Shown piece by piece: positions 24,443-59,200 of a stretch of DNA of 64,000 nt. The notes beneath the pieces are model-generated. The model did not search any database. It saw only the letters and a program-made list of their open reading frames with translations, and was not told the DNA's origin. The position numbers and the translations under genes are program-made. The DNA is taken from NCBI GenBank assembly GCA_030068145.1, contig JAPJBO010000531.1, forward strand, positions 62,001 to 126,000, written 5' to 3'. The DNA comes from Diplonema papillatum (Eukaryota; Euglenozoa; Diplonemea; Diplonemida; Diplonemidae). How positions within the stretch are numbered: the first letter of the stretch is position 1; the number at the start of each line of letters is the position of its first letter.

Positions 24443-27400
24443 CTATGTAACACTGTGTGTGAGGCTGTGGGAACGACGAGTAGCCACCATAGAGACGCTT
24501 CTAGTGTTTCGAGACTGCGGCAGATGCCGAGGCGAAGAGTGCAAAGGCAAAGAGAGAAGACCGCTCGAACTTATGGAGCTAAATACCCTGCTGTTTAACG
24601 AACCAGGGGTGGTGGGCGAGATGAGCGGCGATACCACGGGGGCCCCCAGTCGGGTACAGTCGAAGTCGCTTTGCACAGGGAAGAGCGGCGATAACATGGA
24701 GGCCCCGAGTCGGCTGGATTCGGAGTCGCGCTGCATCGGGAAGAGTGGCGATACGAGCGAGGTACCCAGCCGGGAGGATTCCATGTAGTCGGTCACACCT
24801 TCCGAAGAAACCGAGCGAAACGAGCGCAATTCACACACGGGCAGCATTTGGTCGGCGGCTCGTTCATCACTCTTCCTCCATGCAAGCAGCCGCAGCTTGG
24901 CCCTCCGATCGGTCCTCCACACCACACCTTCGGAAACAACATCAAGCACGAATTTCAGCAGAGCCAGCACCAACGTGGCATAGACCAAAACCCCCGCCCA
25001 CTCCAAGAGCGAATCATGGTCTCCGGGCGAGTAAAAACTCAGGGAGACAGCTATAAGGGCACTGCTTTGCAGAGCCAGCTGTCCGGCCATGATAATATTG
25101 TCACGCGGTTTGGCGTACGGCTGCGTCTTGACCAGCAGTCCCATGAGGATGACAAAAATGGTGGAGGTGCACAATTTTACGTGACCGCAGGAGACTAGGT
25201 TGTCCACGGGTAGCGCTGTTGAGGCCGAGAGAGCAAAGGATGCCGCAAACTCGACAATGTACCACCACGATGTCGCAGGGCGGAACCCGATGACCAAGCA
25301 CGAAAACCGTCTGATCCACGTGTGCTGTCTGGAAGCACTGACCCACTCACCAGGGCCGAGCAACCAGTGGAGCCATGAATTTGGCATCGTATCGGGGTCC
25401 GTCAAATACCTCGCTTTCGGCTCGCCGAGTTGTTCAGTTGACCGCGTCCCGTTCATTGCGATGGTGAACACTGCAACTGGAATGACAACGTGAACTGCAA
25501 TCGTCGCGAGCCCCACCATTGTTCTACCGTACCCTTTAGCGTCGAACACGAGCAGAAACCCTGCATACGAGGTACCCTGGTAAAGCCACAGCACGAGATG
25601 AAGAGGCGCCGACGGGAAGCACAGTAGTGCTCGCATATCACGAGTAGGCGCCTTCACGACTGCACGCGAAAGCGCTGTTGCCACTTGTACGCATACGAAG
25701 TGTACTAGAAGCGAACCCAACACGATGGAAAGGTTTCCCAACACCGCACCGAGGGCATTCGAACCGTCGATCGAGAACTGCAGTGGATGCAAGGAAACCC
25801 TGAGGGTTCCTTCTGTTCCCCTGCTGCAATCTTGCGAAGCGATGATAAGCTTTGACAGGGTGGCCGCACTGCCAGTAGCTCCTGCCGAAGCCAACAAGCT
25901 CAAAGAGGCTGCATCAGCCGTTTTCGAGACGGAGATGCTGACTACTTCGACTTCATTCATGATCCTCAGTGGTACATTCGTGGGCGGGACTAGTGTCAAT
26001 GGTGCACTCGTTAGTGGGGAATTTGTCGGTGGTGCATCCGTTGTTGGAGCTAATGACGGTGGTGCTTTCGTTGGTGGAGATAGTGTCAGTGGTGCATCAG
26101 TTGGTGGAGCTTGTGTCAGTGGAGCATTCGTTGTTGGAGCTAGTGTCAGGGGTGAATTCGTTAGTGGTGCATCAGTTGGTGGAGCTTGTGTCAGTGGAGA
26201 ATTCGTTGGTGGAGATGGTGTCAGTGGTGCATCAGTTTGTGGAGCTAGTGTCAGGGGCGCAATCGTTGTTGGAGAATCTGTCAGTGGCGCATTCGTTGGA
26301 GCTAGTGTCAGTGGTGGATTCGTTGCTGGAGATGGTGTCAGTGGAGAATTCGTTGGTGGAGATAGTGTCAATGGTGCATCAGTTGGTGGAGCTTGTGTCA
26401 GTGGAGAATTCGTTGCTGGAGATAGTGTCAGTGGAGAATTCGTTGGTGGAGATAGTGTCAGTGGTGCATCAGTTGGTGGAGCTTGTGTCAGTGGAGAATT
26501 CGTTGGTGGAGATGGTGTCAGTGGTGCATCAGTTTGTGGAGCTAGTGTCAGGGGCGCAATCGTTGTTGGAGAATCTGTCAGTGGCGCATTCGTTGGAGCT
26601 AGTGTCAGTGGTGGATTCGTTGCTGGAGATGGTGTCAGTGGAGAATTCGTTGGTGGAGATAGTGTCAATGGTACATCAGTTGGTGGAGCTTGTGTCAGTG
26701 GAGAATTCGTTGCTGGAGATAGTGTCAGTGGAGAATTCGTTGGTGGAGATAGTGTCAGTGGTGCATCAGTTGGTGGAGCTTGTGTCAGTGGAGAATTCGT
26801 TGGTGGAGATGGTGTCAGTGGTGCATCAGTTTGTGGAGCTAGTGTCAGGGGCGCAATCGTTGGTGGAGAATCTGTCAGTGGCGCATTCGTTGGAGCTAGC
26901 GTCAGTGGTGGATTCGTTGCTGGAGGTGGTGTCAGAGGTGCATCAGTAGTTGGAGCCAGTGTCAGGGGTGCATTTGTTGGTGACAGCGTGGTTGCAGGCA
27001 GGGCGGTCGTGCAATCGTACTTCACTTGCAAGACGCCCGCAACGCATGTCCTTACGCGCCACTCTTGTAAATACGTCCCATCGGGGCAAAGCACGGGGTC
27101 AAAGTCCTGCAAGTACTCTGTTGTAGCGTCCGGGGGCATGCTGACGCAGGGAGTCTCAAGCGTAGTTACAGTCGGGGTCGCAGGAACCCCGGGAAAAAGC
27201 ACTTCGCAGCAGTCAGTACTGAACCTCGTTCTGTTATCAATTCCGCCGTCACAGTGACTGAAGCGGGTGTCCTGAAGTTGATGACCAGGTTGACAAGACT
27301 GCCCCGCAATCAGTCCCGCCAGTTCGTGTACAGTAGAAGCAGGCCGGCAAGCGCTCGAACTGCCGGCGCAGGAGCCGATCATGGCTACAGAATCGCAGTA

Positions 27401-27631
27401 CGTCTGCATCTGATACTCCCCTGCCGAACAATTCCCCTTGATCAACTGGAAGCCAGCCACGGCACCGCCACTCGGGCAATTGATATCCAGTTCCGAAAAA
27501 CAAGGCGCCTCTGCTTCAACCTGCTTACATCCCGCTAGCGATATCTCTGTGACGTAACCCGCAGCTTCAGGTACGCCGAGGCTGAGGTAGAAACACCACA
27601 GCCAGACCCGCCCGGCCTTCGAGCCTGCCAT
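24443..27631 (-). CDS. PTNAPLTQ-stalk seven-membrane-segment protein, paralogue B (intact)
   Basis: This intact protein has 1062 residues. Residues 1-25 (MAGSKAGRVWLWCFYLSLGV...) are a signal peptide. Residues about 26-215 are a Cys-rich head, with paired cysteines in INCPSGGAVAGF, YLQDFDPVLCPDGTY and VKYDC. Residues about 216-557 are a Pro/Thr stalk of 10-residue units such as PPTNSPLTLS, probably heavily O-glycosylated. Residues about 630-900 hold roughly seven hydrophobic helices including VLWLYQGTSYAGFLLVF. Residues 900-1062 are a Ser-rich tail with three copies of a 20-residue motif, SRLGTSLVSPLFPMQ-like. The layout implies a surface protein with a mucin-like stalk held by a multi-span membrane domain; a receptor or adhesion role is only inference. 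The start is chosen because the same MAGSKAGRVWLW start is conserved in paralogue C. Confidence 0.88.
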   Translation of the reverse strand: MAGSKAGRVWLWCFYLSLGVPEAAGYVTEISLAGCKQVEAEAPCFSELDINCPSGGAVAGFQLIKGNCSAGEYQMQTYCDSVAMIGSCAGSSSACRPASTVHELAGLIAGQSCQPGHQLQDTRFSHCDGGIDNRTRFSTDCCEVLFPGVPATPTVTTLETPCVSMPPDATTEYLQDFDPVLCPDGTYLQEWRVRTCVAGVLQVKYDCTTALPATTLSPTNAPLTLAPTTDAPLTPPPATNPPLTLAPTNAPLTDSPPTIAPLTLAPQTDAPLTPSPPTNSPLTQAPPTDAPLTLSPPTNSPLTLSPATNSPLTQAPPTDVPLTLSPPTNSPLTPSPATNPPLTLAPTNAPLTDSPTTIAPLTLAPQTDAPLTPSPPTNSPLTQAPPTDAPLTLSPPTNSPLTLSPATNSPLTQAPPTDAPLTLSPPTNSPLTPSPATNPPLTLAPTNAPLTDSPTTIAPLTLAPQTDAPLTPSPPTNSPLTQAPPTDAPLTNSPLTLAPTTNAPLTQAPPTDAPLTLSPPTKAPPSLAPTTDAPPTNSPLTSAPLTLVPPTNVPLRIMNEVEVVSISVSKTADAASLSLLASAGATGSAATLSKLIIASQDCSRGTEGTLRVSLHPLQFSIDGSNALGAVLGNLSIVLGSLLVHFVCVQVATALSRAVVKAPTRDMRALLCFPSAPLHLVLWLYQGTSYAGFLLVFDAKGYGRTMVGLATIAVHVVIPVAVFTIAMNGTRSTEQLGEPKARYLTDPDTMPNSWLHWLLGPGEWVSASRQHTWIRRFSCLVIGFRPATSWWYIVEFAASFALSASTALPVDNLVSCGHVKLCTSTIFVILMGLLVKTQPYAKPRDNIIMAGQLALQSSALIAVSLSFYSPGDHDSLLEWAGVLVYATLVLALLKFVLDVVSEGVVWRTDRRAKLRLLAWRKSDERAADQMLPVCELRSFRSVSSEGVTDYMESSRLGTSLVSPLFPMQRDSESSRLGASMLSPLFPVQSDFDCTRLGAPVVSPLISPTTPGSLNSRVFSSISSSGLLSLPLHSSPRHLPQSRNTRSVSMVATRRSHSLTHSVT
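26136..26930. repeat. 297-bp higher-order repeat inside paralogue B stalk
   Basis: The landmark CATCAGTTTGTGGAGC occurs at 26230, 26527 and 26824, exactly 297 bp apart. The period is 99 codons, ten stalk units minus one residue. The copies are nearly identical, differing in single bases such as GGTGCATCAG against GGTACATCAG. Confidence 0.9.
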
Positions 27632-30557: not shown

Positions 30558-30735
30558 GGGGGGGGGGGGGATCAGCGCTCTTGTTACACCACGTACTTGT
30601 CATACGTATGACAAGTACATATGACAAGTACATGTACTTGTCATATTATGACAAGTACTATGACAAGCATGTACTTGTCATCTGACAAGTACATACTTGT
30701 CATATGACAAGTACTTACTCGTCATATGACAAGTT
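30558..30735. repeat. G13 run followed by palindromic ACTTGTCATATGACAAGT satellite
   Basis: A 13-base G run (30558-30570) precedes about 140 bp of the palindrome ACTTGTCATATGACAAGT and variants (ACTTGTCATACGTATGACAA). It extrudes easily as cruciforms. The same palindrome forms a second cluster at 56157-56252 inside the CFAP57 gene. Confidence 0.9.
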
Positions 30736-35109: not shown

Positions 35110-38100
35110 TCAGATTGGAGGAGACGTGGGCGCTTTCGGCGTCCTGGGCGACGAGTGCCCGACCCCCGCGCGTGCGCAGCGGTGAGAAGGACAAAACGAA
35201 CTTCGGTTTACATTGGAACCTTCGCGACACGTGCTTCCAGAGCACGAGGCGCCCAATTGAGTATAATAAGTTGATTGCGTCAAGTTGGACGAAACCTCCT
35301 GACCAGCCTTGGTGCTTTGTAAGCGAGAAAGGGACGGCGAGTGGTGAAGCTTTCGATAATCCTTCGGCGGCGATAGAGGCGACGAGCCTCTAGAGAAGGA
35401 GAGATGAAAATTTGAAGCTCCTGAACTTGACAACAAGCTATGGGATGAACTGGCGTTTTGTAAGCGAGAAAGGGATGGCGAGTGGTGAAGCTTTCGATAA
35501 TCCTTCGGCGGCGATAGAGGCAACGAGCCTCTAGAGAGGGAGAAAGGAAAATTCGAAGCTTCTGAACTTGACAACAAGCTATGGGGTGTACCGGGTGAGT
35601 CAGGCATCCATAGTTGCGACAAAAGGGCTCTGGATGCCAATCGGGAGGTGCCGACGTCTGTCTCGGTAGAGGAAAGACCTGTGGTGTACGCTTCAGATGT
35701 TGTGGGTGCGCAAAAGGCATCGTTTTCGGCTCCTTTGGACCCAGCAATTGCGCCGTCCCGGCACGCGCAGAGCCTGCCTTTCCGGCCGGTCTTCCACACC
35801 ACAATTTCGGCAATGACATCAAGCACAAGCTTCACTAAATAGAGCGACAGCGTAGCAAGAATTAGCCGCCCAGCCAGCTGCGAACACCAGTTCAGGCTCG
35901 TAGCTGAGTACAGACTTAAGGAAATAGCTAGAAGAGCACTCATTTGCAGAATCAGCAGTCCGACACCGACTAAATTGTCGCGCGGTTTTGCGTACGGCTG
36001 CATGCTCAACTGCAGGCCCAGGAGGATGCCGAACATGATAGAACTGAACAACTTTACGTGTCCGCACGCGACGCGATTGCCTACCGGCAAAGCTGTGATG
36101 GCCGAGAGAGCAAAGGACGCTGCTAACTCGATAAATAACCACCACGCTGTCTCCGGGCGATGCGCGATTACCAAGCACGAAAACCGACGGACCCATTCGT
36201 GCTCTTCCGAAACATTGATCCACTCGCCCGGACCTACCAAGAGACCCAACCAAGAGTTTGTTGTTTCGGGGTCAATAGCGTACCTTGCTAGTTGGGCAGT
36301 TGACCGCGTCCCCTCCATCACAACCGAGAACAGTGCAACTGGGACGAGGACGTGAATTGCAAGAGTGATGAGCCCCACCACAGCCTGAACCCACCCTTGA
36401 TGGGAGAACAGGAGCTGAAACCCTGCATACGAGGTTCCCTGGTAAAGCCATAACACGATGCAGAGAGGCGCCGTCGGAAAGCGCAGTAGTGCTCGCATAT
36501 CGCGTGCAGGCCTCTTGTGGTGAAAAGCCTGCGAAATCATCGTTGCCGTTTGTACGCATACAAAATGCACCAGGAACAAACTCAACATGATAAGAAAGTT
36601 GCCGATCACAGCTCCCAAAGCCATAGAATTGTCGATTGAGAACTGCAGAGGATGCAAGGATACCGCTATGTTTCCTTCCGTTCCCCCGGTGCAATGCTGC
36701 GAAGCGATGACAAGCTTCGATAGGGCAGCCCCACTGCCACTGGCACTAGCTGAAACTAACAGGCCCAGAGAGGCTGCATCAGATGCTTCTGTGACAGGGG
36801 TGCTGACTACTTCGATCCCCTTCACGATACTCAGTGGCGTCATGGTGCTTCTTTCCGGCGAAAAAGAAGGTGCAATGGTTGTAGGCAATGGTGTTAGTGG
36901 TGATTGGGTCGGTGCTGGTGGCGTTTGTGTCGGGGCTTGTGATGGTGGCACTTGTGTTGCCGGAGCTTCTGTCCGTGCTGTTGGTCCTTGTGCAGGTGGT
37001 GCTTGTGTCGGTGGCACTTGTGTTGATGATGCTTGAGTTGGAGGCGCTTGTGGAGGTGGTGCTTGTGTTGGAGCTGGTCCTGATGACGGTGCTTGTGTCG
37101 ATACTGGGTTTGTGAATGGTGCTTGTGTCGGTGGTGCTTCTGTCCATGGTTCATGTGTCGGCGGTGTTTGTGTTACTTGTGGGGCTAGTGTCAACGGTGC
37201 ACTCGTTGGCGGAGAATCTGTCAGTGGCGCACTCGTTGTTGGAGCTAGTGATAGTGGCCGATTCGTTGCTGAAGGTGGTGTCAGCGGAGAATTCGTTGCT
37301 GGAGATGGTGTCAGGGGAATACTCGTTGGTGGAGATAGTGTCAGTGGTGGATTCGTTGCTGGATTTGGTGTCAGTGGAGAATTCGTTGGTGGAGATGGTG
37401 TCAGGGGAACACTCGTTGGTGGGGATAGTGTCAGTGGTGCGTTCGTTGGCGGAGAATCTGTCAGTGGCGCATTCGTGGCTGGAGCTAGTGACAGTGGTGG
37501 ATTCGTTGCTGGATTTTGTGTCAGTGGAGAATTCGTTGCTGGAGATGGTGTCAGGGGGACACTCGTTGGTGGGGATAGTGTCAGTGGTGCATCAGTTGTT
37601 GGAGCTTGTGTCCGGGGTGCGTTCGTTGGCGGAGAATCTGTCAGTGGCGCATTCGTGGCTGGAGCTAGTGACAGTGGAGAATTCGTTGCTGGATTTTGTG
37701 TCAGTGGAGAATTCGTTGCTGGAGATGGTGTCAGGGGGACACTCGTTGGTGGGGATGGTGTCAGTGGTGCATCAGTTGTTGGAGCTTGTGTCCGGGGTGC
37801 GTTCGTTGGCGGAGAATCTGTCAGTGGCGCATTCGTGGCTGGAGCTAGTGACAGTGGAGAATTCGTTGCTGGATTTTGTGTCAGTGGAGAATTCGTTGCT
37901 GGAGATGGTGTCAGGGGGACACTCGTTGGTGGGGATGGTGTCAGTGGTGCATCAGTTGTTGGAGCTTGTGTCCGGGGTGCGTTCGTTGGCGGAGAATCTG
38001 TCAGTGGCGCATTCGTGGCTGGAGCTAGTGACAGTGGAGAATTCGTTGCTGGATTTTGTGTCAGTGGAGAATTCGTTGCTGGAGATGGTGTCAGGGGGAC

Positions 38101-39441
38101 ACTCGTTGGTGGGGATGGTGTCAGTGGTGCATCAGTTGTTGGAGCTTGTGTCCGGGGTGCGTTTGTTGGCGGAGAATCTGTCAGTGGCGCACTCGTTGCT
38201 GGAGGTTGTGTCAGTGGAGAATTCGTTGCTGGAGATGGTGTCAGGGGGACACTCGTTGGTGGGGATGGTGTCAGTGGTGCATCAGTTGTTGGAGCTTGTG
38301 TCCGGGGTGCGTTTGTTGGCGGAGAATCTGTCAGTGGCGCACTCGTTGCTGGAGGTTGTGTCAGTGGAGAATTCGTTGCTGGAGATGGTGTCAGGGGGAC
38401 ACTCGTTGGTGGGGATGGTGTCAGTGGTGCATCAGTTGTTGGAGCTTGTGTCCGGGGTGCGTTTGTTGGCGGAGAATCTGTCAGTGGCGCACTCGTTGCT
38501 GGATGTTGTGTCAGTGGAGAATTCGTTGCTGGAGATGGTGTCAGTGGTGCATCAGTAGTTGGTGCTTGTGTCCGGGGTGCGTTCGTTGGCGGAGAATCTG
38601 TTAGTGGCGGATTCGTTGCTGGAGGTTGTGTCAGTGAAGAATTAGTTGGTGGAGATGGTGTCAGGGGAACACTCGTTGGTGGAGCTAGTGTCAGTGGCGC
38701 ATCAGTTGCTGGAGCTAGTGTCAGTGGTGGATTCGTTGGCGGAGAATCTGTCAGTGGCGCATTCGTGGCTGGAGCAGGTGTCAGTGGAGCATTTGTTGGT
38801 GATGCACGCAGGGCGGTCGTGCAATCGTACCTCACTTTCAAGACGCCCGCAACGCATTCCCATATGCGCCACTCTTGTAAATACGTCCCATCGGGGCAAA
38901 GCACGGGGTCAAAGTCCTGCAAGTACTCTGTTGTAGCGCCAGGAGGCATGCTGACGCAGGGAGTCTCAAGCGTAGTTACAGTCGGGGTAGCAGGAACCCC
39001 GGGAGAAAATACTTCGCAGCAGTCAGTACCGAGCATCGTTTTGTTAAGAACTCCGCCGTCACAGTGACCGAAGCGGGTGTCCTGAAGTTGATGTCCAGAT
39101 TGACAAATCTGCCCCGGAAACAGTGCCGTCAGTTCGTGTACAGTAGAAACAGGATGGCAAGCGCTCGAACTGCTGATGCAGGAGCCGATCATGGCTGCAG
39201 GATCGCAGTACGTCTGCATCTGATACTCCCCTGCCGAACAATTCCCCTTGATCAACTGGAAGCCAGCCACGGCACCGCCACTCGGACAATTGATATCCAG
39301 TTCCGTAAACCAAGGCGCCTCTGCTTCAACCTTCTTACATCCCGATAGCGATATCTCTGTGACGTAACCCGTAGCTTCAGGTACGCCGAGGCTGAGGTAG
39401 AAACACCACAGCCAGACGCGCCCGGCTTTCGAGCCTGCCAT
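35110..39441 (-). CDS. PTNAPLTQ-stalk seven-membrane-segment protein, paralogue C (intact, longest)
   Basis: This protein has 1443 residues from the conserved MAGSKAGRVWLW start at 39441; the frame is open 73 codons further, but those are upstream sequence. It has a signal peptide (1-25) and a Cys-rich head (26-210) very close to paralogue B. The stalk is about 650 residues (214-864), ending in a different subtype (THEPWTEAPPTQAPFT, QAPPTQASSTQVPP). A linker is followed by about seven hydrophobic helices (about 945-1215, including VLWLYQGTSYAGF) and a 225-residue Ser-rich cytoplasmic tail. The tail contains a perfect in-frame tandem duplication of 47 residues (core PLSPPKDYRKLHHSPSLSRL). It is likely a cell-surface mucin-like membrane protein; ligand and function are unknown. 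B and C heads are much more alike than A, so they duplicated last. Confidence 0.88.
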   Translation of the reverse strand: MAGSKAGRVWLWCFYLSLGVPEATGYVTEISLSGCKKVEAEAPWFTELDINCPSGGAVAGFQLIKGNCSAGEYQMQTYCDPAAMIGSCISSSSACHPVSTVHELTALFPGQICQSGHQLQDTRFGHCDGGVLNKTMLGTDCCEVFSPGVPATPTVTTLETPCVSMPPGATTEYLQDFDPVLCPDGTYLQEWRIWECVAGVLKVRYDCTTALRASPTNAPLTPAPATNAPLTDSPPTNPPLTLAPATDAPLTLAPPTSVPLTPSPPTNSSLTQPPATNPPLTDSPPTNAPRTQAPTTDAPLTPSPATNSPLTQHPATSAPLTDSPPTNAPRTQAPTTDAPLTPSPPTSVPLTPSPATNSPLTQPPATSAPLTDSPPTNAPRTQAPTTDAPLTPSPPTSVPLTPSPATNSPLTQPPATSAPLTDSPPTNAPRTQAPTTDAPLTPSPPTSVPLTPSPATNSPLTQNPATNSPLSLAPATNAPLTDSPPTNAPRTQAPTTDAPLTPSPPTSVPLTPSPATNSPLTQNPATNSPLSLAPATNAPLTDSPPTNAPRTQAPTTDAPLTPSPPTSVPLTPSPATNSPLTQNPATNSPLSLAPATNAPLTDSPPTNAPRTQAPTTDAPLTLSPPTSVPLTPSPATNSPLTQNPATNPPLSLAPATNAPLTDSPPTNAPLTLSPPTSVPLTPSPPTNSPLTPNPATNPPLTLSPPTSIPLTPSPATNSPLTPPSATNRPLSLAPTTSAPLTDSPPTSAPLTLAPQVTQTPPTHEPWTEAPPTQAPFTNPVSTQAPSSGPAPTQAPPPQAPPTQASSTQVPPTQAPPAQGPTARTEAPATQVPPSQAPTQTPPAPTQSPLTPLPTTIAPSFSPERSTMTPLSIVKGIEVVSTPVTEASDAASLGLLVSASASGSGAALSKLVIASQHCTGGTEGNIAVSLHPLQFSIDNSMALGAVIGNFLIMLSLFLVHFVCVQTATMISQAFHHKRPARDMRALLRFPTAPLCIVLWLYQGTSYAGFQLLFSHQGWVQAVVGLITLAIHVLVPVALFSVVMEGTRSTAQLARYAIDPETTNSWLGLLVGPGEWINVSEEHEWVRRFSCLVIAHRPETAWWLFIELAASFALSAITALPVGNRVACGHVKLFSSIMFGILLGLQLSMQPYAKPRDNLVGVGLLILQMSALLAISLSLYSATSLNWCSQLAGRLILATLSLYLVKLVLDVIAEIVVWKTGRKGRLCACRDGAIAGSKGAENDAFCAPTTSEAYTTGLSSTETDVGTSRLASRALLSQLWMPDSPGTPHSLLSSSEASNFPFSLSRGSLPLSPPKDYRKLHHSPSLSRLQNASSSHSLLSSSGASNFHLSFSRGSSPLSPPKDYRKLHHSPSLSRLQSTKAGQEVSSNLTQSTYYTQLGASCSGSTCREGSNVNRSSFCPSHRCARAGVGHSSPRTPKAPTSPPI
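35313..35594. repeat. 141-bp tandem duplication in the paralogue C tail
   Basis: TTGTAAGCGAGAAAGGGA recurs exactly 141 bp apart (35317 and 35458), followed by near-identical sequence. 141 bp is 47 codons, so the frame is kept and the encoded PPKDYRKLHHSPSLSRL segment occurs twice. Confidence 0.9.
37200..38620. repeat. 180-bp and 150-bp higher-order repeats inside paralogue C stalk
   Basis: The landmark GTTCGTTGGCGGAGAATCTG recurs at 37621, 37801 and 37981 (180 bp). From 38161 a shortened version recurs at 38161, 38311 and 38461 (150 bp), lacking one 30-bp unit. Both are multiples of 30 bp, so length changes keep the frame. Plus-strand frames across it are artefacts. Confidence 0.9.
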
Positions 39442-40947
39442 TTTCGATGCGAGTGCAGGGCTTACAGACTTCTCTGTCTCCGGCCGGCACCTGATGCCGA
39501 AGAGTGCCACATGATTGCACCCGGAAGAATGGCTTGGAGAAAGGATCCTGCGATGGAATAGACTATACGAGCCATTGGATAAAGAACTGCGGAGTTGTGT
39601 TGTTGAAGGCTTTCCCCGGAGAAGAGGAAGTAAATCGCGAACCTGGCAACGGTAAAACAAGAGGGGGATGTCAAATAGCCTTTTCCGGCGCCACAGTGGT
39701 GGCTACAACGGGCTACGGACAGACTTCGCTGGCGCTGTGGCAAAAAGATCTGACGAGTACTTGGATTTACAGTCCAAGGCGACGGCCCTTCTTCGTCACG
39801 GTCTTGTTTTTGCAGAGCACTAACCGCTTTCTTCCTCGTCGCAATCTGACACGAGCAAAGAAGTAACTGCAAGACAGTGTTGCAGAATGTAGTCACATGA
39901 GGATGCTGAGGGGTTTTCAGACCAGATTCCGCTCCCGTTTCTGCTGCATCCGGTAGTACGTTCTCGTGTATCACTTTTATCGGCGGCTGTGCCGCTGCTG
40001 TGGGATGGTGCTTTGGTTCTTCGTTCCGCTTGCGTTGTCGGTAGGGTTTCCTCTGGCTTCGTCCAATTCTTCTGCCCGGTGGCATCTCGAGGGTACCGCT
40101 GGAGACTTCCCTGCGCAGAAGTCACTCTTCTCCACAGCAAGTGCAGAGGAGAGAGACATGTAAGTTCTCCTCGGTGCCATTTGCCTGGAGATAACAGTGA
40201 AGAAGAAAAGGTTGGAAACGTCAAAAGGTGGCTGGGAAAGACTTTGTTTATCCTCAGAGCCGGGGAAGGTAGGTACGAAAATAAAAAGAGAGAGAAACAA
40301 GAAGAGTACAAGACGTCCGTCTGCTTGTGAGTGAAAGCTAATACAGGAACACCCCTCCTAGAAAGTTTGCACCCTGCACACGCGAAGAACAAAGGACGCG
40401 CTTCTTATTGAGGGTAGGTGCAACTGTCGACCCCAAGGGACGACCTTCGGTGGTATGTCTGTTAGTGAGTACGTATCATGAACGACGCGCTTCAACTATC
40501 GATTGCAAAAAAATGAGCGCCACTTGTTGCGTGATGGGCGTACGGATTGGTGCTTTTCGACTTTCTGTTTGTTTGTGAGGTTCGGATGTTTGTGGTCAGT
40601 AGACGGGAGCTGAACGGAAAACTGTACTGTTTCGGACTGCATACTAACTCGTGCTTGAGCCAGGATGCCCATTCGGCAGCATGTGCTAGACTAGACCCGT
40701 GGGTAGTTGATTTATTGGCTTATTCTCCTACACACAGCCTTGAAGCTCGATGAGAATAGTTGAGTGCGCAGCTCTTGACAAAGACAGATCGAAAGGTGTT
40801 TTTATTCTTCGCTTTTTCTCACGAACGGGGGGTCGGTCCTGCTCTTGGCATTGTAGGTTCTCCCGACTCCAAATCGTGGTTAGCACACTTGAGAGGTCTA
40901 GTCAACTATTCCCTGCATACTTTCTAGAACCGGAAATAAACCTGCGG
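39442..40947. other. upstream region of paralogue C and gene-poor spacer
   Basis: 39442-39640 is conserved with the upstream region of paralogue B and probably contains its promoter and 5' UTR. Beyond it nothing is recognised. Minus frames at 39462-40392 overlap each other in two frames without motifs. Confidence 0.45.
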
Positions 40948-40981
40948 TTTTTTTTTTTTTTTTGGGGGGGGGGGGGGGGGG

Positions 40982-41368
40982 CAGTGCTGATACTAAGCCT
41001 GAGACCCAAAACGAAGTTGCTAACCCTGGGTGGGGGTGGGTACCCCCCCCCTACCCCCCCCTCCCCCCTCCTGGTGCAACCCACTGTGGACCTACTGTGG
41101 GACCCACCTTAGCTAAATTCTCTAAGGTGAAATGGTGGAAAAAGTGGGTCAAAAATCTTTTTTTTCGAGTGCTTTTTTGGGAGGATTTGGGCCAAAAAAA
41201 AATTTTTTTTTCTTGGTCGCTGCTGAGGAAACCACCTTACTTGCAGGAGGGGGGGGTCGTTGTATGCAGGAGGGGGGGGGGTGTTTAGGGGGGGGGGGTA
41301 CCCACCCACCCCTCGTTGCCGTCCGGCTGACAACGATGCCGAGTTTAGGGGCCTTAGCATCAGCACTG
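40982..41368. mobile_element. 387-bp foldback element bounded by G runs
   Basis: It begins CAGTGCTGATACTAAG and ends CTTAGCATCAGCACTG. The inverted similarity continues inward through GGTGGGTACCCCCCC. It is flanked on the same strand by G18 (40964-40981) and G17 (41369-41385), as expected if it inserted into and duplicated a poly-G target. The interior holds ATTCTCTAAGGTGAAATGG, shared with 42735, and A/T runs. No coding capacity. Confidence 0.7.
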
Positions 41369-41385
41369 GGGGGGGGGGGGGGGGG

Positions 41386-42557
41386 CTGTGCATACTGTGC
41401 ATACGAGTCGGATTCTCGTCTAAACTCGTATTTCGGTTTTCGGAGCAAATTCTCGCCAAACGACTCGTATTCTCGTGCCAAACTCGTCTAAACTCGTCGT
41501 ATCATTCTCGTCAAAACTCGGCTAAACTCATCTAAACTCGTATTGACGAGTTTAGACGAGTACAGGCTATTTTCACTGTGGAACACGGTATTTGGCCTTC
41601 TGTGCTACTTTCTTTCACCACAAGACCGGTATCCTGCGACCGCTGTTCCTAATTCCTCATTTCCTTCAGCTCCTGTATTCCAAGAATTCCTGCTCCCGAA
41701 CTGCCGCTTTTCAGCCTACGGTTTTCAGGGCGACGGTTGGATAATTTGAGGATGGCCGACCAGCCACACAAAGAAGACCAAGAAGATTCGCAACAGCATC
41801 GGCAAGATAGGCAAGACGGGGGTCCGGTACACTTGAATGTTCACAAACCAGCAAAGTACCCCTCGTGGCTTCAGGTCAAGCATATGGAGGCGGTGCCGCG
41901 ACGACCACGTGCTGTGCACCTCGTTGAGAAGGGAGCGATTCTCAGCAGGACATGGTGCTCACCATGACTTCTTTGAACCGAGAGATGAGAGCAGGGAAAT
42001 GTTACAGGGAATGTTAACGAGGGTTTAGCACGAGACGGATGAGACACATGATTGGTCCCATGAGAGCCCATAAGCAAGCACGCTCGGCCACCATGTTTCC
42101 CCAGCCACCCACGTATGTTCCGTCGATCAGGGACGCCAGTTCGAGCAAGCTTCAGGCATTTTTGGCCTCGCGAGTTCCCGACTATAACGAACTGCACCAA
42201 CAAAGCGTGACGGTCAGAATGTTGAAGTTGCTTGGGTCAGGGCGGCATTATTGATGTTGGCAGCATCGACATAAATTCTTCACGGTGAAACGCTTCTGCA
42301 GCTGCATCACTTCCTCCTCCTTGGTCGCGTTGCGTCTTTTATGGACCAGACCCAGCCCAGGAGGTTTTCCTCCGGACACAACATTTCTTAGCACACCAAA
42401 GAATATGTCCCAAAAATGACCTTGTGACCTAAAACCCCCCCAGTAAAACCACCTTTAAAAAATTCTCGTCTAAACTCGTATGACGAGTTTAGACGAGAAT
42501 CTGATACGAGAATACGACTCGTACACGAGAATACGACTCGTATGCACTGTATGCCTA
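41386..42557. mobile_element. 1.2-kb element with ACTCGTCTAAACTCGT palindromic-satellite ends, between G runs
   Basis: The left end, right after the G17 run, reads GCATACTGTGCATACGAGTC and continues into repeats of ACTCGTCTAAACTCGT (41402-41558). The right end (42463-42557) is the reverse complement, ending GACTCGTATGCACTGTATGC, and is followed by a G run. The interior (41560-42460) has no recognised gene, only a helical-looking minus frame near 42250-42345 (NATKEEEVMQLQKRFTVK). Confidence 0.65.
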
Positions 42558-42630
42558 GGGGGGAAAAGCTATATGCCTAGGGGGGAAAAGCTATATGCCT
42601 GGGGGGGAAAAGCTATATGCCTAGGGGGGG
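42550..42630. repeat. 22-bp minisatellite TATGCCTAGGGGGGAAAAGC-TA
   Basis: Three full units plus a partial fourth join the right end of the 41386-42557 element to the G17 run at 42625-42641. The unit starts with the last bases of that element's end (TATGCCTA). Confidence 0.85.
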
Positions 42631-42641
42631 GGGGGGGGGGG

Positions 42642-44601
42642 CAGTGCTGACACTACCCTGAGGGCCCCAACGACTTTGCAAGGGACCCCCCCCCCCCTTC
42701 TACAGTGCAGTTGCCTTGGAGGCTGGGTGGTCGAATTCTCTAAGGTGAAATGGTCAAGATTTCCTGGCAAAAGTGGGCCCACAAAAAATTTTCAAAGTGT
42801 GGTTTTTGGGGTATTTGGGCCAAAAAAAAAATTTTTTTTTTTGAGACAAAACCATATCGGAAGCACTTAAGTGGGGAAAATATTTATCGGAACGTTTCCG
42901 ATAAATATTTTTTTGTTTCCGATAAATATTTTTTGTTTCCGATAAATATTTTTTGTTTCCGATAAATATTTTTTTGTTTCCGATAAATATTTTTTGTTTC
43001 CGATAAATATTTTTGATACGGGTTCCTGGGGACTAGTCCCCAGTGCGAAATGTGCCAAGGGGAGTCCCATTGGGCAAGCAATTTCATTGGATTTTGCGAG
43101 GACCCTAAGTAATCCGGAGCCAGTGTGATAGACCTCTGTGATGTGGGCCGCTTCACTGCTCGTCTGCATGTGGACTGCTCTGTACCTGTGCCTTCTCCGC
43201 GCTTGCAGCTTTTCAAGCCGGCCACGCCTGCTTTCCCTTTTCTGTCTTTCGACCTCGGTGATCCCTCGCGGGCGTCCTGCTGTGCCATCTGAATCTCCTC
43301 GCCTTCCTTCGTGGTTTGCTTGGCACCCTCTGCTCGCGCAGCTTGCGGCGCGGGTCTCTTCAGAGCCGGTCGTCTTCGTGTGCGCTGTTCTGTCATCGCT
43401 TGCCTTTGTTGCCGATTTCTGCAACAAAGGCAGTTTTGGCCCGTGAAATGGGCTACTCTCTCTTTATTGTGTGAGTGCTTTTGTCTCCAGGATTGAAATG
43501 AGGCTGACGCGGAAAATCCTACCGTCCGACATGGCACAAGTCAAGGGAAACAAATATTTTACGGGAACTAGTATGCACGGCAGCCCCGATACTACTAAGC
43601 CCCGTTGGCATACTTACACTCCATGGCTGCCTCGATGGCACCAAATCCGTAGTCGTGGTTAGACATTTTCAGGTAGGAGGATGTTACCTGGTCAGGACCG
43701 CATGCAGTTTTGTCGTATTGGGGCCGCATAGGACCCGGATGAAGTCGTTGCGAATACACACAACAGATCAACGAAGGGTAGAACTGGGGAACATGCAGAT
43801 CAGACGGAAGTAGAATGTGCAAACTTATCCTTTTCTTGACTTGCCGTTCTGAAAGCTGTTGAGGGGCCCCTACGTAGGTTCTCGCATGATTCGTTCGCCT
43901 TTGTAACACTATCCGTTTGTAGTAAGCTTTGCAGTTGTGTTCTTGCAATATCTAGCCGAATGGTGGGTGGCGGATTTCCGCGCTCGTGCGCAAGACGCAG
44001 TTTTACTGCAACTGCAGTGTAAGCCGAACCCGGTTCGTGACCTTTGTCGCGGTGAAGTGGTACAAAGTCTTCAGCTTTCAGATCCGGATACTGCTCAATG
44101 CAACCAGATAGTTAGATGTCACTTGATGGATACCCGTGTGCTGCATTCGAAAAGGTTTGCGTATCTGGTGTTGAAAATTGTGAACAGCCTTTGCTGGGGA
44201 GGCTTTCGACCCGAAACTAGATAGAAAAACGATCGTATTTGGCTTCGTCGCGGTCGTCCACGGGACGAAGTAGGTGAACCTACTGTCAAAGTGATCAATA
44301 CTTATCGGAAACAGAAAAATATTTATCGGAAACAAAAAATATTTATCGGAAACAAAAAAATATTTATCGGAAACAGAAAAATATTTATCGGAAACAAAAA
44401 AAATATTTATCGGAAACAAAAAAAATATTTATCGGAAACAAAAAAAATATTTATCGGAAACAGTTTCCGATAAATATTTTCCCGACTTAAGTGCTTCCCT
44501 TATGGTTTCTCCGAATTTTTTTTTTCTGACCAGCCACCGTGTTGACCACCTTAGAGAGTGACAGGTAGCGTCCCCCCTCCACAGTGAAAATAGCCTGTAT
44601 A
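42642..44601. mobile_element. 2-kb element with TTTCCGATAAATATTT palindromic-satellite arms, between G runs
   Basis: The left end CAGTGCTGACACTACCCTGA follows a G17 run and resembles the left half of 40982-41368 (shared ATTCTCTAAGGTGAAATGG and the A/T run). The satellite (42881-43015, units TTTCCGATAAATATTTTTTG) reappears inverted at 44300-44485, followed by an inverted GCACTTAAGT block. A G28 run follows (44602-44629). The interior contains a 43735-44215 core homologous to 52205-52690, and a Lys/Arg-rich minus frame (42884-43537, 217 codons) of unknown meaning. Confidence 0.7.
43735..44215 (-). other. conserved element core, copy 1
   Basis: The reverse complement matches 52205-52690 at about 80-85 percent over more than 400 bp. 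A translated stretch is kept almost unchanged (EHNCKAYYKRIVLQRRTNHA against EHNCEAYYKRIVLQRRTNHA), but both copies also contain stop codons. The protein is not recognised; it could be a decayed part of an element-encoded gene. Confidence 0.65.
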
Positions 44602-44629
44602 GGGGGGGGGGGGGGGGGGGGGGGGGGGG

Positions 44630-44700
44630 TGTTTCTTGGGTTTGAAGAGCGCGTGGTGCTTGCACCACTGAGGCCAGGTTATTTAACCGCGGATTTAGTG
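44630..44700 (-). repeat. inverted copy of CFAP57 intron sequence
   Basis: The reverse complement of 50263-50333, differing at about two positions, and starting immediately after the G28 run. The CFAP57 copy lies just before the acceptor of exon 50358-50972, so a piece of that intron end was duplicated in inverted orientation 5.6 kb upstream. Confidence 0.8.
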
Positions 44701-45254
44701 AAGGATTGTTCAGGAAACGGTCGCGAGCGAAACCCGACCAGGTAACGACCATTTCACTGTCTTCTTTGTTTTGTGATGCGAACATCACGAGGTGCTGTCC
44801 GAAGACACCGCCCACGTGAGCACTGTTAAGCAGCGGTTGCCAGATACTCCCGTAGCACCTATTCACGGGTTTGCAGGGGTAAAAAGGAAGCCCGGGTTGG
44901 GGAGGGTGGTGGGTTTGGTGCGTAGTATTCTTCTTTTTTTGTTCTTTCTCGGTTCTGGTGGTGCTGCTCCTTCCTTCTCGTCCTGTGTTGGGTTACGACT
45001 TTTTTTGTTCTTTATCGGTTCTGAGCGTTTCCATATGCCTTTTCCTGCTTTGACATGCAGTCCCTTCCAAACTGTACCTCTCTTGGTGTTCGGGGGTTGG
45101 GCCGTATGGTAACGTCTCGGGAAACGAAGTTTGTGGCGTCACAAAAGCGACAGGTTGCCAAAGCAACCGGGTGCCGAGCTTAAGCAAGGCGTTTGTCAAT
45201 GGAGAACCAGTCCTGTGCCGTTTTAGGGCCGGCAGGTCTCAACGGGGGGGGGGG

Positions 45255-52815: not shown

Positions 52816-55570
52816 TCAATCCGAAACGGAGCGCCTCCGCTTCTGGCTTCCAGTTTTTGCGGCCGCTTCCTTGGAGGCTGGTTTTCCGGCCGCTTTCTTG
52901 ATGGCTGGTTTTCCGGCCGCTTTCTTGGCGGCTGGCTTTGCGCGAGGCGCTGGAGCTGGCGCTGCCGGTGGCAATCTAGCATTAAACCGCAGATGCATTC
53001 TTACCTTGCGGAGGAGCGCTGCCGACGGTTTCCCCCGTATTAGGGTGAAGTGGTCGCTCATGCCCAACAAGTCGTCTTCGTGTATCAGATACACTGTCGA
53101 CACTGGTTCTGCTACGGGGTGCTGTGTAAACATTGTCAGCCTAAACTCATCATTTTCGGGTACCTTCAATACAGAGATGAAGACAATCTTCACCTGGAAT
53201 ACGATAGCCGCCAATAAAACGGCTTGTGTGTCCGCCCACGCTTTTCTCGCAGACTGCAGACGAACCCAACAGTCAAACTTGGACTCGTGTTCGTTGTGGA
53301 GGTCAATGGCTGCCCCGTCTTCTATTCGCTGTTTGAACAGCTCTCTCGTATTCAAATCCAAGTTGTCTAACTCTTGGAAACGGATTGTGCGCAATGTGTG
53401 CCCTCCGTGGTCGTCACCGTTGTGCGAAGAAAAGAACATGTTCTGGCAGTTGGGTACGTTGGCGAGGCTGCTATAAAAACAGTCGCCATCTCCGGCCACC
53501 AATACCAATTCCGTTCCGGTGTTCTGCACCCAGGTGAGCACAGAGGACAAATGCAGCTTTGGTTTCGCTTTGGACGAATGCTTTTTGTTTGCTGGTTTGG
53601 GAACAGGCACCGGCGGTGCTGGTTCTTCCCCCTTGTCGTCCTTCTTTGCCTGTAGGGGCGGCTTCGTGCACGTAACCTTATAGTGCCCCTTTGAGCCGCA
53701 CCTGGTGCACGTGACTTGCCGCTTCTTGGCATCCCTGAAAGGCAATTCGTCATCGTCGACCTCCCCTCGGCTCGGGATGCGCTTTTCTTTTGGTCGACCT
53801 GACGATCTCTTGGGTTGCGGGGGTGCAAGATTGTCGAGCGCAAGGGTCTTTATATCGTGCACAGTCGGAACGCTGATGTCGTAAAACTCCCGTAACGATT
53901 TCACCGTGTACTTGCTGTCGACAAGGGCTAAGGGATGGACCTTTCTCTGGCCGCAAGCACACACGATGTGCACACACGGAAACGGCGACACGCACTGGCC
54001 AATGCATGAGCACTTGTACACGGTGCCATTGCTTAAAACGCGCACCCTGTGCTTTACTCCGCTTTTCGCTTCGTTTACCTTGTACTCTGCTTGTCCGGCA
54101 GGCGTGGCAGAGAAACCCCGAGCAAGGTACTCAATTTTCCCCAACCTCTTCTCGACCCATGGAACAAATGTAGAGGCATCTCTCTGTGCGTACTGCCCTG
54201 CTCTTGCTGAATGCAGATGCATGAGACTGTGTCGCAGCCTTTCAAAAAGATTGAGAGAGAGAGAGAGAGACGAGTTAGAGTGCAGGGACCATCTCTCCGA
54301 GGAGTATCCGGTCGCCCCACTACTATCCCGTACTACTACGGCGGGCGCAAGTCGTTGCGCCGAGGGCGCGGAGCGAGCCGTGGCCCTGTCAAAGATGATT
54401 GTTGCACCGATGGTGGCGCAGCCGGGGGCGTTCTGACTGGCGGACGAGACCGCCTGGCAGGCGTGTGTTGGCACGTTGTTTCGCGGGCTCTCCTCCTTTT
54501 GGCAATAGCCCGCCCTATGGCGGCGGCTAGCATCTTGACAGAGAATCTCAACTCCCACTGAACATAGGGTACGTCGTGCGGATATTCAGGCACGGCATCG
54601 TTCCAGCTGTTACGGGCGCAAATTGTTTCCAGCTTGCCCAACATCCACTCGGTCTTCCGTCCAGCCGCAAAGCGTGGGCGGTGGGTACAACCCGGCATAG
54701 CCGGCGCACCAAAACAGCGGAGGGAACAGACCCCCTGCCGCCACTTCCCAGGGAAGGAGGCGACTCCTGAGTCGGCGCAGCACAGGTCGTTGATAGCTCG
54801 CATAAGGTACCCAATTTGCAGCCCCTTCTCGGCGAAGGTTCTCCCTGGGAGCTTCGAACGCGTAAATGCCTCAAAATCAAGCGCGAGTTCCACGCCTGTC
54901 GTCGGGAGAGGGTTGGAGCTGACTCCGCAGCCAGAAGACCAACGTCGCTGCGAAGCGGCGGAAGATTGACTGCATTGAGGGCGCTTCGAGCAAGCTTGGC
55001 ATTCTTGTTGAACCCCTCACTTACGTTGCTCGTGTAGTGATGAAACCTACAGCCCTCCCCAAGATAAGCGTCGGACATGCAGTCTCGGAGCTTATCAAGA
55101 TACAACGCAAGCTTTTGGCTTTCTTTTTCGGCAGCTGCAAGTCTCACTGCGTACTCTTCTTTTGTCTTTGCGTGGGCAAGCTTCCACACGTGGGGTTTCT
55201 TTCCCTTCCCAAAGGCCGTGTTGACATTGCGCACTACGTGGTTAACACATATCAAGTGCAACGTGTCAGGAAGCACAGTCCTCACGGCGCTCATCAGCCC
55301 CTTGTCTCTATCTGACATCAGTGTGAACCCTGCCGGCACAAGGTCCTTCAGCTGAACCAGGAACGAGGCCCATGAGGCTGCGTCTTCGGTCTGACCCAAA
55401 CCATATGCGATGGGGACAACTTTGTGCCTTGGATCGAGGCACACAGCGACAAAGAGGATGCCACCGTGTGTAACAGACCGGTACGGGCTACAAGGCAACC
55501 CCTGCTCAACTGTAGAACGTGGGGGGCCCAAGACTACACTCCACGAAGGAATGTACTTGGTGTCGGTCAC
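52816..55570 (-). CDS. MULE transposase fused to SWIM, CCHC and OTU-protease domains (antisense in CFAP57 intron)
   Basis: The N-terminal part carries MULE transposase signatures: GGILFVAVCLDPRHKVVPIA, TLMSDRDKGLMSAV, LHLICVNHVVRNVN and HHYTSNVSEGFNK. A reading-frame change lies near 54900-54950, perhaps a very short intron or a frameshift. The next frame (from GVELALDFEAF) runs to CGCCCGCC at 54341, where a 102-bp intron (54239-54340) restores the frame into LRHSLMHLHSARAGQYAQRD. A SWIM zinc finger (YKCSCIGQCV...PCVH) and a CCHC knuckle (CTRCGSKGHYKVTC) follow. An OTU-type cysteine protease (GDGDCFYSSLA with the catalytic Cys; SDHFTLIR with a likely catalytic His) and a Lys/Ala-rich basic tail complete it. 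The N-terminal DNA-binding part and the first catalytic Asp are not clear, so the copy may be 5'-truncated. Confidence 0.8.
54239..54340 (-). other. frame-verified 102-bp intron in the MULE gene; introner-like
   Basis: GTAGTAGTACGGG...CACTCTAACTCGTCTCTCTC...TTTTTGAAAG. The upstream frame stops at the TAG formed by the donor itself. Splicing joins CC to G and continues the downstream frame without a gap. Structure and sequence are shared with 9246-9340. Confidence 0.75.
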
Positions 55571-56252: not shown

Positions 56253-56261
56253 TGTTTCTGT

Positions 56262-59200
56262 AAAGTGCAACTGCCGTGACGTAGTCCGTTGGGAGAGTCA
56301 ACGATGATGAGGATGAGGTCAAACGGGTCATTTCCAGGTCAAGCTTCGTTCCCACCCAGGGGGGTAGCATTGCGTTCTGTAAAGTGCAACTGCCGTGACG
56401 TCGTCCGTTGGGAGAGTCAACGATGATGAGGATGAGGTCAAACTGTCATTTCCAGGTCAAGCTTCGTTCCCACCCAGGGGTAGCATTGCGTTCTGTAAAG
56501 TGCAACTGCCGTGACGTCGTCCGTTGGGAGAGTCAACGATGATGAGGATGAGGTCAAACTGTCATTTCCAGGTCAAGCTTCGTTCCCACCCAGGGGTAGC
56601 ATTGCGTTCTGTAAAGTGCAAGTGCCATGAAGGCAAGCGAGCACTGTTCACGGGCTAGTGTTACTTTATGACGTCGTCCGTTGGGAGAGTCAACGATGAT
56701 GAGGATGAGGTCAAACTGTCATTTCCAGGTCAAGCTTCGTTCCCACCCAGGGGTAGCATTGCGTTCTGTAAAGTGCAACTGCGTGACGTCGTCCGTTGGG
56801 AGAGTCAACGATGATGAGGATGAGGTCAAACTGTCATTTCCAGGTCAAGCTTCGTTCCCACCCAGGGGTAGCATTGCGTTCTGTAAAGTGCAAGTGCCAT
56901 GAAGGCAAGCGAGCACTGTTCACGGGCTAGTGTTACTTTATGACGTCGTCCGTTGGGAGAGTCAACGATGATGAGGATGAGGTCAAACTGGTCATTTCCA
57001 GGTCAAGCTTCGTTCCCACCCAGGGGTAGCATTGCGTTCTGTAAAGTGCAACTGCCGTGACGTCGTCCGTTGGGAGAGTCAACGATGATGAGGATGAGGT
57101 CAAACTGTCATTTCCAGGTCAAGCTTCGTTCCCACCCAGGGGTAGCATTGCGTTCTGTAAAGTGCAACTGCGTGACGTCGTCCGTTGGGAGAGTCAACGA
57201 TGATGAGGATGAGGTCAAACTGTCATTTCCAGGTCAAGCTTCGTTCCCACCCAGGGGTAGCATTGCGTTCTGTAAAGTGCAACTGCGTGACGTCGTCCGT
57301 TGGGAGAGTCAACGATGATGAGGATGAGGTCAAACTGTCATTTCCAGGTCAAGCTTCGTTCCCACCCAGGGGTAGCATTGCGTTCTGTAAAGTGCAACTG
57401 CGTGACGTCGTCCGTTGGGAGAGTCAACGATGATGAGGATGAGGTCAAACTGTCATTTCCAGGTCAAGCTTCGTTCCCACCCAGGGGTAGCATTGCGTTC
57501 TGTAAAGTGCAACTGCGTGACGTCGTCCGTTGGGAGAGTCAACGATGATGAGGATGAGGTCAAACTGTCATTTCCAGGTCAAGCTTCGTTCCCACCCAGG
57601 GGTAGCATTGCGTTCTGTAAAGTGCAACTGCGTGACGTCGTCCGTTGGGAGAGTCAACGATGATGAGGATGAGGTCAAACTGTCATTTCCAGGTCAAGCT
57701 TCGTTCCCACCCAGGGGTAGCATTGCGTTCTGTAAAGTGCAACTGCGTGACGTCGTCCGTTGGGAGAGTCAACGATGATGAGGATGAGGTCAAACTGTCA
57801 TTTCCAGGTCAAGCTTCGTTCCCACCCAGGGGTAGCATTGCGTTCTGTAAAGTGCAACTGCGTGACGTCGTCCGTTGGGAGAGTCAACGATGATGAGGAT
57901 GAGGTCAAACTGTCATTTCCAGGTCAAGCTTCGTTCCCACCCAGGGGTAGCATTGCGTTCTGTAAAGTGCAACTGCGTGACGTCGTCCGTTGGGAGAGTC
58001 AACGATGATGAGGATGAGGTCAAACTGTCATTTCCAGGTCAAGCTTCGTTCCCACCCAGGGGTAGCATTGCGTTCTGTAAAGTGCAACTGCGTGACGTCG
58101 TCCGTTGGGAGAGTCAACGATGATGAGGATGAGGTCAAACTGTCATTTCCAGGTCAAGCTTCGTTCCCACCCAGGGGTAGCATTGCGTTCTGTAAAGTGC
58201 AAGTGCCATGAAGGCAAGCGAGCACTGTTCACGGGCTAGTGTTACTTTATGACGTCGTCCGTTGGGAGAGTCAACGATGATGAGGATGAGGTCAAACTGT
58301 CATTTCCAGGTCAAGCTTCGTTCCCACCCAGGGGTAGCATTGCGTTCTGTAAAGTGCAACTGCGTGACGTCGTCCGTTGGGAGAGTCAACGATGATGAGG
58401 ATGAGGTCAAACTGTCATTTCCAGGTCAAGCTTCGTTCCCACCCAGGGGTAGCATTGCGTTCTGTAAAGTGCAACTGCGTGACGTCGTCCGTTGGGAGAG
58501 TCAACGATGATGAGGATGAGGTCAAACTGTCATTTCCAGGTCAAGCTTCGTTCCCACCCAGGGGTAGCATTGCGTTCTGTAAAGTGCAACTGCGTGACGT
58601 CGTCCGTTGGGAGAGTCAACGATGATGAGGATGAGGTCAAACTGTCATTTCCAGGTCAAGCTTCGTTCCCACCCAGGGGTAGCATTGCGTTCTGTAAAGT
58701 GCAACTGCGTGACGTCGTCCGTTGGGAGAGTCAACGATGATGAGGATGAGGTCAAACTGTCATTTCCAGGTCAAGCTTCGTTCCCACCCAGGGGTAGCAT
58801 TGCGTTCTGTAAAGTGCAACTGCGTGACGTCGTCCGTTGGGAGAGTCAACGATGATGAGGATGAGGTCAAACTGTCATTTCCAGGTCAAGCTTCGTTCCC
58901 ACCCAGGGGTAGCATTGCGTTCTGTAAAGTGCAACTGCGTGACGTCGTCCGTTGGGAGAGTCAACGATGATGAGGATGAGGTCAAACTGTCATTTCCAGG
59001 TCAAGCTTCGTTCCCACCCAGGGGTAGCATTGCGTTCTGTAAAGTGCAACTGCGTGACGTCGTCCGTTGGGAGAGTCAACGATGATGAGGATGAGGTCAA
59101 ACTGTCATTTCCAGGTCAAGCTTCGTTCCCACCCAGGGGTAGCATTGCGTTCTGTAAAGTGCAACTGCGTGACGTCGTCCGTTGGGAGAGTCAACGATGA

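Follow-up and report, generated by a model that had tools for sequence, protein, structure and literature searches.

A group of hAT-like elements in Diplonema papillatum that appear to insert mostly into runs of G and in one orientation

The sequence analysed, here called the window, is a stretch of 64,000 nucleotides of the Diplonema papillatum genome (assembly GCA_030068145.1, contig JAPJBO010000531.1, C531:62001-126000, forward strand). Three inverted-repeat elements, E1, E2 and E3, lie among runs of G at window positions 40964-44629. A sequence-only reading had described them as three consecutive elements bounded by poly-G runs on one strand, as a poly-G target preference would give. The runs and inverted ends it described were present, all runs on the plus strand. 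G-run boundaries were confirmed for E1 and E3; E2 is flanked by TA, and the run of 28 G taken as the right flank of E3 lies inside that element. Judged from sequence comparison with copies across the assembly (271 Mb, 2910 contigs, to which all genome-wide counts refer), E1 and E3 belong to a group of hAT-like elements that would insert mostly into G-runs.

All features of the cluster are on the plus strand. The left part of the E1 target is a G18 tract (40964-40981), which contains the 8 base pair (bp) duplication. E1 (40982-41368), a putative non-autonomous hAT-type element of 387 bp, has the ends CAGTGCTGATACTAAG and CTTAGCATCAGCACTG, which are inverted (CAGTGCTGATRCTAAG). The motif AACGA is located subterminally at the left end (41010-41014, position 29 of 387) and, on the same strand, at the right end (41332-41336, position 351). 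An internal C-tract (41043-41051) is found close to the left end and two internal G-tracts, G10 and G11 (41272-41298), close to the right end. The first G of the G18 at 41368-41385 is the last base of E1, leaving a G17 tract (41369-41385) between E1 and E2. E2 (41386-42557) is an inverted-repeat element of a different kind, whose left tip is altered in the window. Its right tip is included, together with TAGGGGGG, in a 22-bp minisatellite with G6 (42550-42629), and a G18 tract (42624-42641) is the left target flank of E3.

E3 appears, by comparison of its copies, to be a composite of an E1-like outer element and an inverted-repeat element of about 1.65 kilobases (kb) nested in its T-run. The left part of the outer element (42642-42850), with an internal C12 tract (42686-42697) close to its end, matches the 3' end of a 4593-bp coding element on contig C40. 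The nested element occupies 42851-44511, with ends at about GAGACAAAACCATA and ATGGTTTCTCC; its position was set by comparison with E3 copies free of the insert, which measure 332-354 bp, and its boundaries are approximate. Arrays of GTTTCCGATAAATATTTTTT were found close to both of its ends. Its location in a T-run leaves its target duplication ambiguous, and it may be MULE-like. The right part of the outer element (44512-44601) runs up to CCTGTATA and is followed by G28 (44602-44629). The general layout of E3 is CAGTGCTGACACTACCCTGAG ... CCTGTATATA, a G-tract, TCAGGTCAGATTCTGCCAACGACTCCGCAATCTGGCCGCTTAGGGCCACCCCTG and the duplication. In the window a dispersed repeat begins immediately after G28, and the right terminal 54 bp or so are absent; the same end is missing on a second contig, C2726 (L041), where G22 is followed by AA. 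In 23 of the 24 other E3 rows the tract is followed by the 54-bp end, complete or partial, the comparison having yielded no row for L074, L075, L084, L089 and L090. At L068 this end comes after a nested insert, and at L078 another element follows the tract and the end was not seen. Since other copies continue for about 54 bp past the tract, G28 is an internal tract, and both its role as right boundary of the third element and its candidacy as a plain target flank were rejected. On the simplest reading, the internal G-run of the window E3 would have recombined with the flanking one, deleting the end, and G28 is perhaps fused with the flanking run.

Genome-wide counts were exact matches to an element end, with or without six preceding G or C. 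The 21-base left end of E3 occurred 260 times, and 202 of these occurrences (78%) were preceded by six G, against 51 of 60334 window positions outside the cluster (0.08%), an association beyond chance. The E1 left end was found 240 times after GGGGGG, a number that counts the G-preceded ends and not all E1 ends.

Flanks were read from individual copies. First-look searches gave 1117 candidate relatives of E1 and 1570 of the left part of E3, and 40 were scored in each case; E1 flanks were read in element orientation at 20 loci and in 19 further stretches, one of which is the L009 locus again. With a cut-off of at least six G among eight bases on each side, G-rich flanks were present on both sides in 31 of 34 both-ended E1 rows (exceptions L004, L050 and L059; the window locus is counted twice and its second contig once) and in 15 of 18 both-ended E3 rows (exceptions L066, L068 and L085). 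The table of flanks and duplications omits L010, L057, L058 and L078, with a mutated or absent tip, four E1 rows with a left end only (L003, outer copy; L043, L044, L045) and 12 left-only E3 rows, among which the window locus appears twice, each of the 12 having a G-rich left flank. For E1 and E3, a preference for poly-G targets, with duplicated G to the left and right, was borne out. Copies without G-rich flanks, which the sequence-only reading had named as evidence against it, do form a minority, made up of 3 of the 34 E1 rows and 3 of the 18 E3 rows. L057 and L078, which have mutated tips and stand outside the tally, are likewise without plain G flanks. Two copies, with CGTTTGTG at L004 and CCTGCACT at L059, lie in ordinary sequence between perfect 8-bp duplications; they fix the E1 ends at CAGTG...CACTG and mark the preference as strong but not absolute. 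When the flanks of 52 insertion rows were compared, one pair was a duplicated locus (the window and L008), and L003 and L006 shared flanks, both being inserted in E1's own G-tract. Most of the 52 rows are separate events.

The length of the duplication could be read in 20 informative rows, those with flanks other than pure G. Eight showed an exact duplication of 8 bp (E1 at L004, L006, L009, L014 and L059; E3 at L068, L070 and L083), and none was longer. Examples are GGGGGGGT, GGGGGGTA, GGGGGGGA, GGGGGGCA and AGGGGGGC. At L009 one E1 was inserted in the duplication created by another E1. These duplications also bear on whether the runs are real, as homopolymers are prone to error and poly-G at hairpin-rich sequence might stem from errors of assembly or sequencing. 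Letters other than G within the duplications agree across the element. The small contig C2726, an allelic or duplicate copy of the window, has other G-run lengths; over 9.9 kb it is 99.3% identical and keeps the same element order. Poly-G artefacts at read ends are expected outward on opposite strands, and the runs observed here share one strand on the two sides of an element. Duplications that include T, A or C, together with varied flanks and a second contig, make an artefact, which had been named as a possible refutation, very unlikely.

An inverted-repeat element, R, found in L002 and L020, carries GATGCCAAAA-G-tract-TTTGGGCAGATG in both arms and provided two empty sites. In L002 (L002:1479-3097) E1 lies in one arm between G12 and G7, and the second arm, with G14, is empty. 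In L020 one arm is filled by E1 and the other is empty with G15. The L002 arms were aligned, and those of L020 were compared by eye from the sequence letters. Filled and empty arms together show that the G-tract was present before insertion. E1 has matching flanks in L017 and L054.

Tracts inside the elements themselves hold further insertions. In L003 and L006 another E1 copy lies within the tract that matches E1's internal G-tracts, and E1 sequence continues on either side of it. Both sides were likewise seen for another element (CAGGGGGCGCACTAAGG) inside E1's G-tract at L044 and for a 0.8-kb insert inside E3's G-tract at L068; at L069 and L078 an insertion in an element-internal G-tract was seen from one side only. 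The opposite order of events, in which G-runs arise after insertion by slippage, by lengthening of a short duplication rich in G or by addition of bases without a template, and no target preference exists, could draw on the wide variation in run length and on the difference between the window (G28) and the second contig (G22). It is very improbable in view of the empty R arms, the E1 copies inside E1's own G-tracts and the duplications GGGGGGGT, GGGGGGTA and GGGGGGCA, in which the cut lies at the 3' edge of a G-tract.

Insertions at G-runs were strongly polarised. The E3 left end was found only 2 times after CCCCCC, versus 202 times after GGGGGG, and the E1 left end only once, versus 240 times; 99% of run-flanked E1 and E3 ends face one way. 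An orientation lock, with the left end lying 5' on the G strand, applies to run-adjacent ends genome-wide, and the same-strand G runs on both sides of the window elements reflect a general rule for such ends (240:1 and 202:2). The E3 5' end was listed once among 80 matches of an after-G8 pattern that omits E1, a count of G-preceded 5' ends and not of all of them, and this single case fits the rarity of the reverse orientation. Position within the run was also uneven. The left run was longer in 18, shorter in 3 and equal in 1 of 22 E1 copies, and longer in 9 and shorter in 5 of 14 E3 copies. One of these five is a double count at L067, where two left ends were paired with one right end; this adds one to the E3 totals in the run-length comparison and in the nested-insertion and flank-sharing counts, and the flank and duplication table is free of it. 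A sign test of left against right run gave p 0.002 for E1 and E3 combined and was not significant for E3 alone. Insertion sites tend towards the 3' edge of the G-run.

The asymmetry could be secondary, if orientation were free at insertion and reverse copies were later lost by selection or recombination. The internal and flanking G-tracts are direct repeats, between which the window E3 seems to have lost its end. In both E1 and E3, however, the subterminal C-tract on the left and G-tract on the right form an inverted pair, so that one direct pair exists in either orientation; loss would be near symmetric and not 100-fold, which makes this explanation improbable. E3 carries AACGA close to each end, at positions 29 and 317 of 353, both on one strand, and the other strand lacks the motif.

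The 4593-bp element that matches E3 is located at C40:133279-137871, spanning the adjacent stretches L091 and L084. Its 3' end corresponds to the E3 left end (97% over 217 bp) and its 5' end to the E3 right end (94% over 143 bp). It contains a single unbroken open reading frame (ORF) of 1156 amino acids (aa) and, in coding orientation, has 32 C before and 9 C after it. The 8-bp duplications, the ends, motifs in the ORF and sub-threshold Pfam matches led to its assignment to hAT. The ends, CAGTG/CACTG in E1 and CAGTG/CCCTG in E3, are short, inverted and of the YARNG form expected for hAT. In one comparison the motif region aligned weakly (E 0.023) with a neighbouring DUF659-bearing hAT protein. 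Several results limit the assignment. The hAT dimerisation domain, PF05699, matched at 14.4 bits (E 0.034) with a cut-off of 21.4, and DUF4371 matched the N-terminal part below cut-off (E 0.19), where RGM_C, unrelated to hAT, scored alike (E 0.038-0.054). No PDB relative of the last 381 aa was found at E up to 1. The motifs FDEAED, TDG, WCLGH, TRW and ERLFS are presumably the RNase H catalytic residues and CxxH (D/D/CxxH/E) of hAT, picked out from the letters of the ORF and not by alignment. A search with two parts of the protein found no viral relatives.

The sequence-only reading had known of no described DNA transposon family that fits. The 8-bp duplications, the CAGTG/CAGGG ends and the long subterminal regions resemble those of hAT elements (Hermes, Ac, Tol2, hobo), as do the weak dimerisation-domain match and the presumed motifs of the coding relative, and point to that superfamily instead. 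E1 and E3 are accordingly best described as probable internally deleted, non-autonomous copies of hAT-type transposons, and the 1156-aa protein as the putative transposase moving E3 and perhaps E1.

A second hAT element (CAGTGTTGTGAGGCCTTGG) begins directly after the C-run by the C40 element. Its match to DUF659 (E 5.5e-6) was below cut-off, and its dimerisation domain was above cut-off at C40:139708. Genome-wide its end was found 7 times after C6 and 3 times after G6, counts that cover run-preceded ends and not the total. The end of a third family, CAGGGGGCGCACTAAG, made up 77 of the 80 matches of the after-G8 pattern that omits E1, a pattern that leaves C-flanked ends outside the count. A tally of poly-G across loci was mixed with element-internal runs and yields no clean family list. 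A search for the hAT dimerisation domain gave 851 candidates, 150 of which were scored. Open frames of exactly 904 or 942 aa contain many of the scored matches, on many contigs, and apparently represent young families.

Taken together, a hAT-type transposase very probably inserts E1 and E3 into pre-existing G-runs, duplicating 8 bp of the run. The putative 1156-aa transposase may recognise G-tracts itself rather than via a host protein, and the same DNA-binding region could read both the subterminal C/G tracts and the target tract. The same-strand AACGA motif near both ends would make the transposition complex polar and so lock the orientation. Every insertion would create new landing sites, since the elements bring G-tracts with them and duplicate the target, and chains such as that in the window would result. 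It is conceivable, and here our confidence is limited, that a hAT lineage has evolved a self-copying, strand-reading target choice, in which the element docks one way near the 3' edge, brings a portable landing site and builds directional chains.

The main rival to direct recognition by the transposase is a preference set by open, nucleosome-free chromatin or by a host G-tract-binding protein that tethers the transposase, and not by the G-tract itself. A shared host factor would explain why sites of one kind serve two different hAT families. The 100:1 to 240:1 lock and the lean to the 3' edge require sequence contact, as accessibility alone is strandless; a bound host protein could still confer strand. 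We regard this rival as unlikely, though it deserves more weight than the other alternatives.

Some observations speak against G-run insertion by a polar complex, or weaken the counts behind it. The E3 left end follows neither G6 nor C6 in 56 of 260 cases. Duplications measured 4 to 7 bp in 8 of the 20 informative rows and were absent in 4 (L048, L050, L051 and L085); loss of G within the run could account for most of the short ones. Eleven further pairs among the 52 insertion rows have one flank in common, mostly via common repeats, so that the insertion counts are partly dependent. G-run lengths are those of the assembly. In E1, AACGA occurs on the other strand as well, at positions 276 and 332. 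The second hAT family uses G/C-runs without clear polarity (7:3), and polarity is therefore not a rule of all G-run insertion.

E2 was rejected as a member of the G-targeting group, its copies being located at TA without one-strand G flanks. The 20 E2 loci include the window and its second contig, and at least 5 of the 18 other copies (L026, L028, L031, L038 and L039) show TA|GGCATAC...GTATGCC|TA. Five or more C precede the left TA in L029, L030, L031, L032 and L040, G7 to G10 follow the right TA in L026, L027 and L036, and a G-run at the left end was observed only in L035 (G13) among the 18. Bounded by TA left and right in at least five copies, E2 resembles Tc1/mariner-like elements and stands outside the G-run behaviour; it appears to be a TA-flanked bystander caught between two G-runs. 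A fourth element, at 45255, had been noted to start after a G-run. A G11 (45244-45254, plus strand) does directly precede it, on one side only, and other copies show no clear G preference, following GGGGGTA (L009), GCA (L033) and ACA (L037). A TA duplication was rejected for this element, as L033 and L037 are not TA. The palindrome array near 30592 is preceded by G13 (30558-30570), as had been claimed. This run, AT and CAGCGCTCTTGTTA (30558-30586, plus strand) form the start of a possible further G-flanked hAT-type family. The element, beginning at 30573, has one other copy among the loci examined (L069), likewise after a G-run; its right end was not found.

The dispersed repeat after E3 starts with TGTTTCTTGGGTTTGAA and is present in the window at 44630 (plus) and 50317 (minus), and in L020, L041, L044 and L070, after a G/A-rich stretch. 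Elsewhere in the window, three related long ORFs on the minus strand (15799-18765, 24443-27631 and 35110-39660) contain PTNAPLTQSP-type repeats and a C-terminal part rich in hydrophobic stretches. A MULE transposase fragment was identified at 54548-55570 (minus; PF10551, E 5e-12), and a search for viral relatives of it found none. A satellite array at 56256-60979 consists of nearly identical units of about 115 bp, interrupted in places. Domain matches in the window include WD40, MYND, MULE and extensin-like.

Cut-and-paste transposons rarely select a defined target, and directional targeting is unusual. Retrotransposons without long terminal repeats that target microsatellites have been reported and have similar simple-repeat landing sites; E1 and E3 differ from them in being inverted-repeat DNA transposons. 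For Hermes, the available text of PMC10368747 gives the target as nTnnnnAn and describes asymmetric binding of zinc-finger BED domains to subterminal repeats, and that of PMC2803484 reports in vitro insertions in both orientations. Targeting as described in these texts is not matched by E1 and E3, which are found at G-runs with polarities of 240:1 and 202:2. Dada DNA transposons, in the text available from PMC3706591, make 6-7 bp duplications in small nuclear RNA and transfer RNA genes; as far as that account goes, the resemblance lies in strict targeting of a landing site present in many copies, whereas E1 and E3 make 8-bp duplications, mostly in homopolymer G-tracts. In the open-access PMC literature, with subscription papers and Repbase outside the scope, we found no hAT element or miniature inverted-repeat transposable element with a poly-G or homopolymer target, and no description of orientation-locked insertion by a homopolymer-duplicating cut-and-paste transposon; the papers listed include one about Caenorhabditis poly-G/poly-C tracts (PMC2211496). 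G-run targeting would explain the co-occurrence of long G-runs and element clusters in the window. E1 and E3 may serve as a natural system for studying strand recognition by a transposition complex at its target, and their targeting could inform the design of sequence-directed integration tools.

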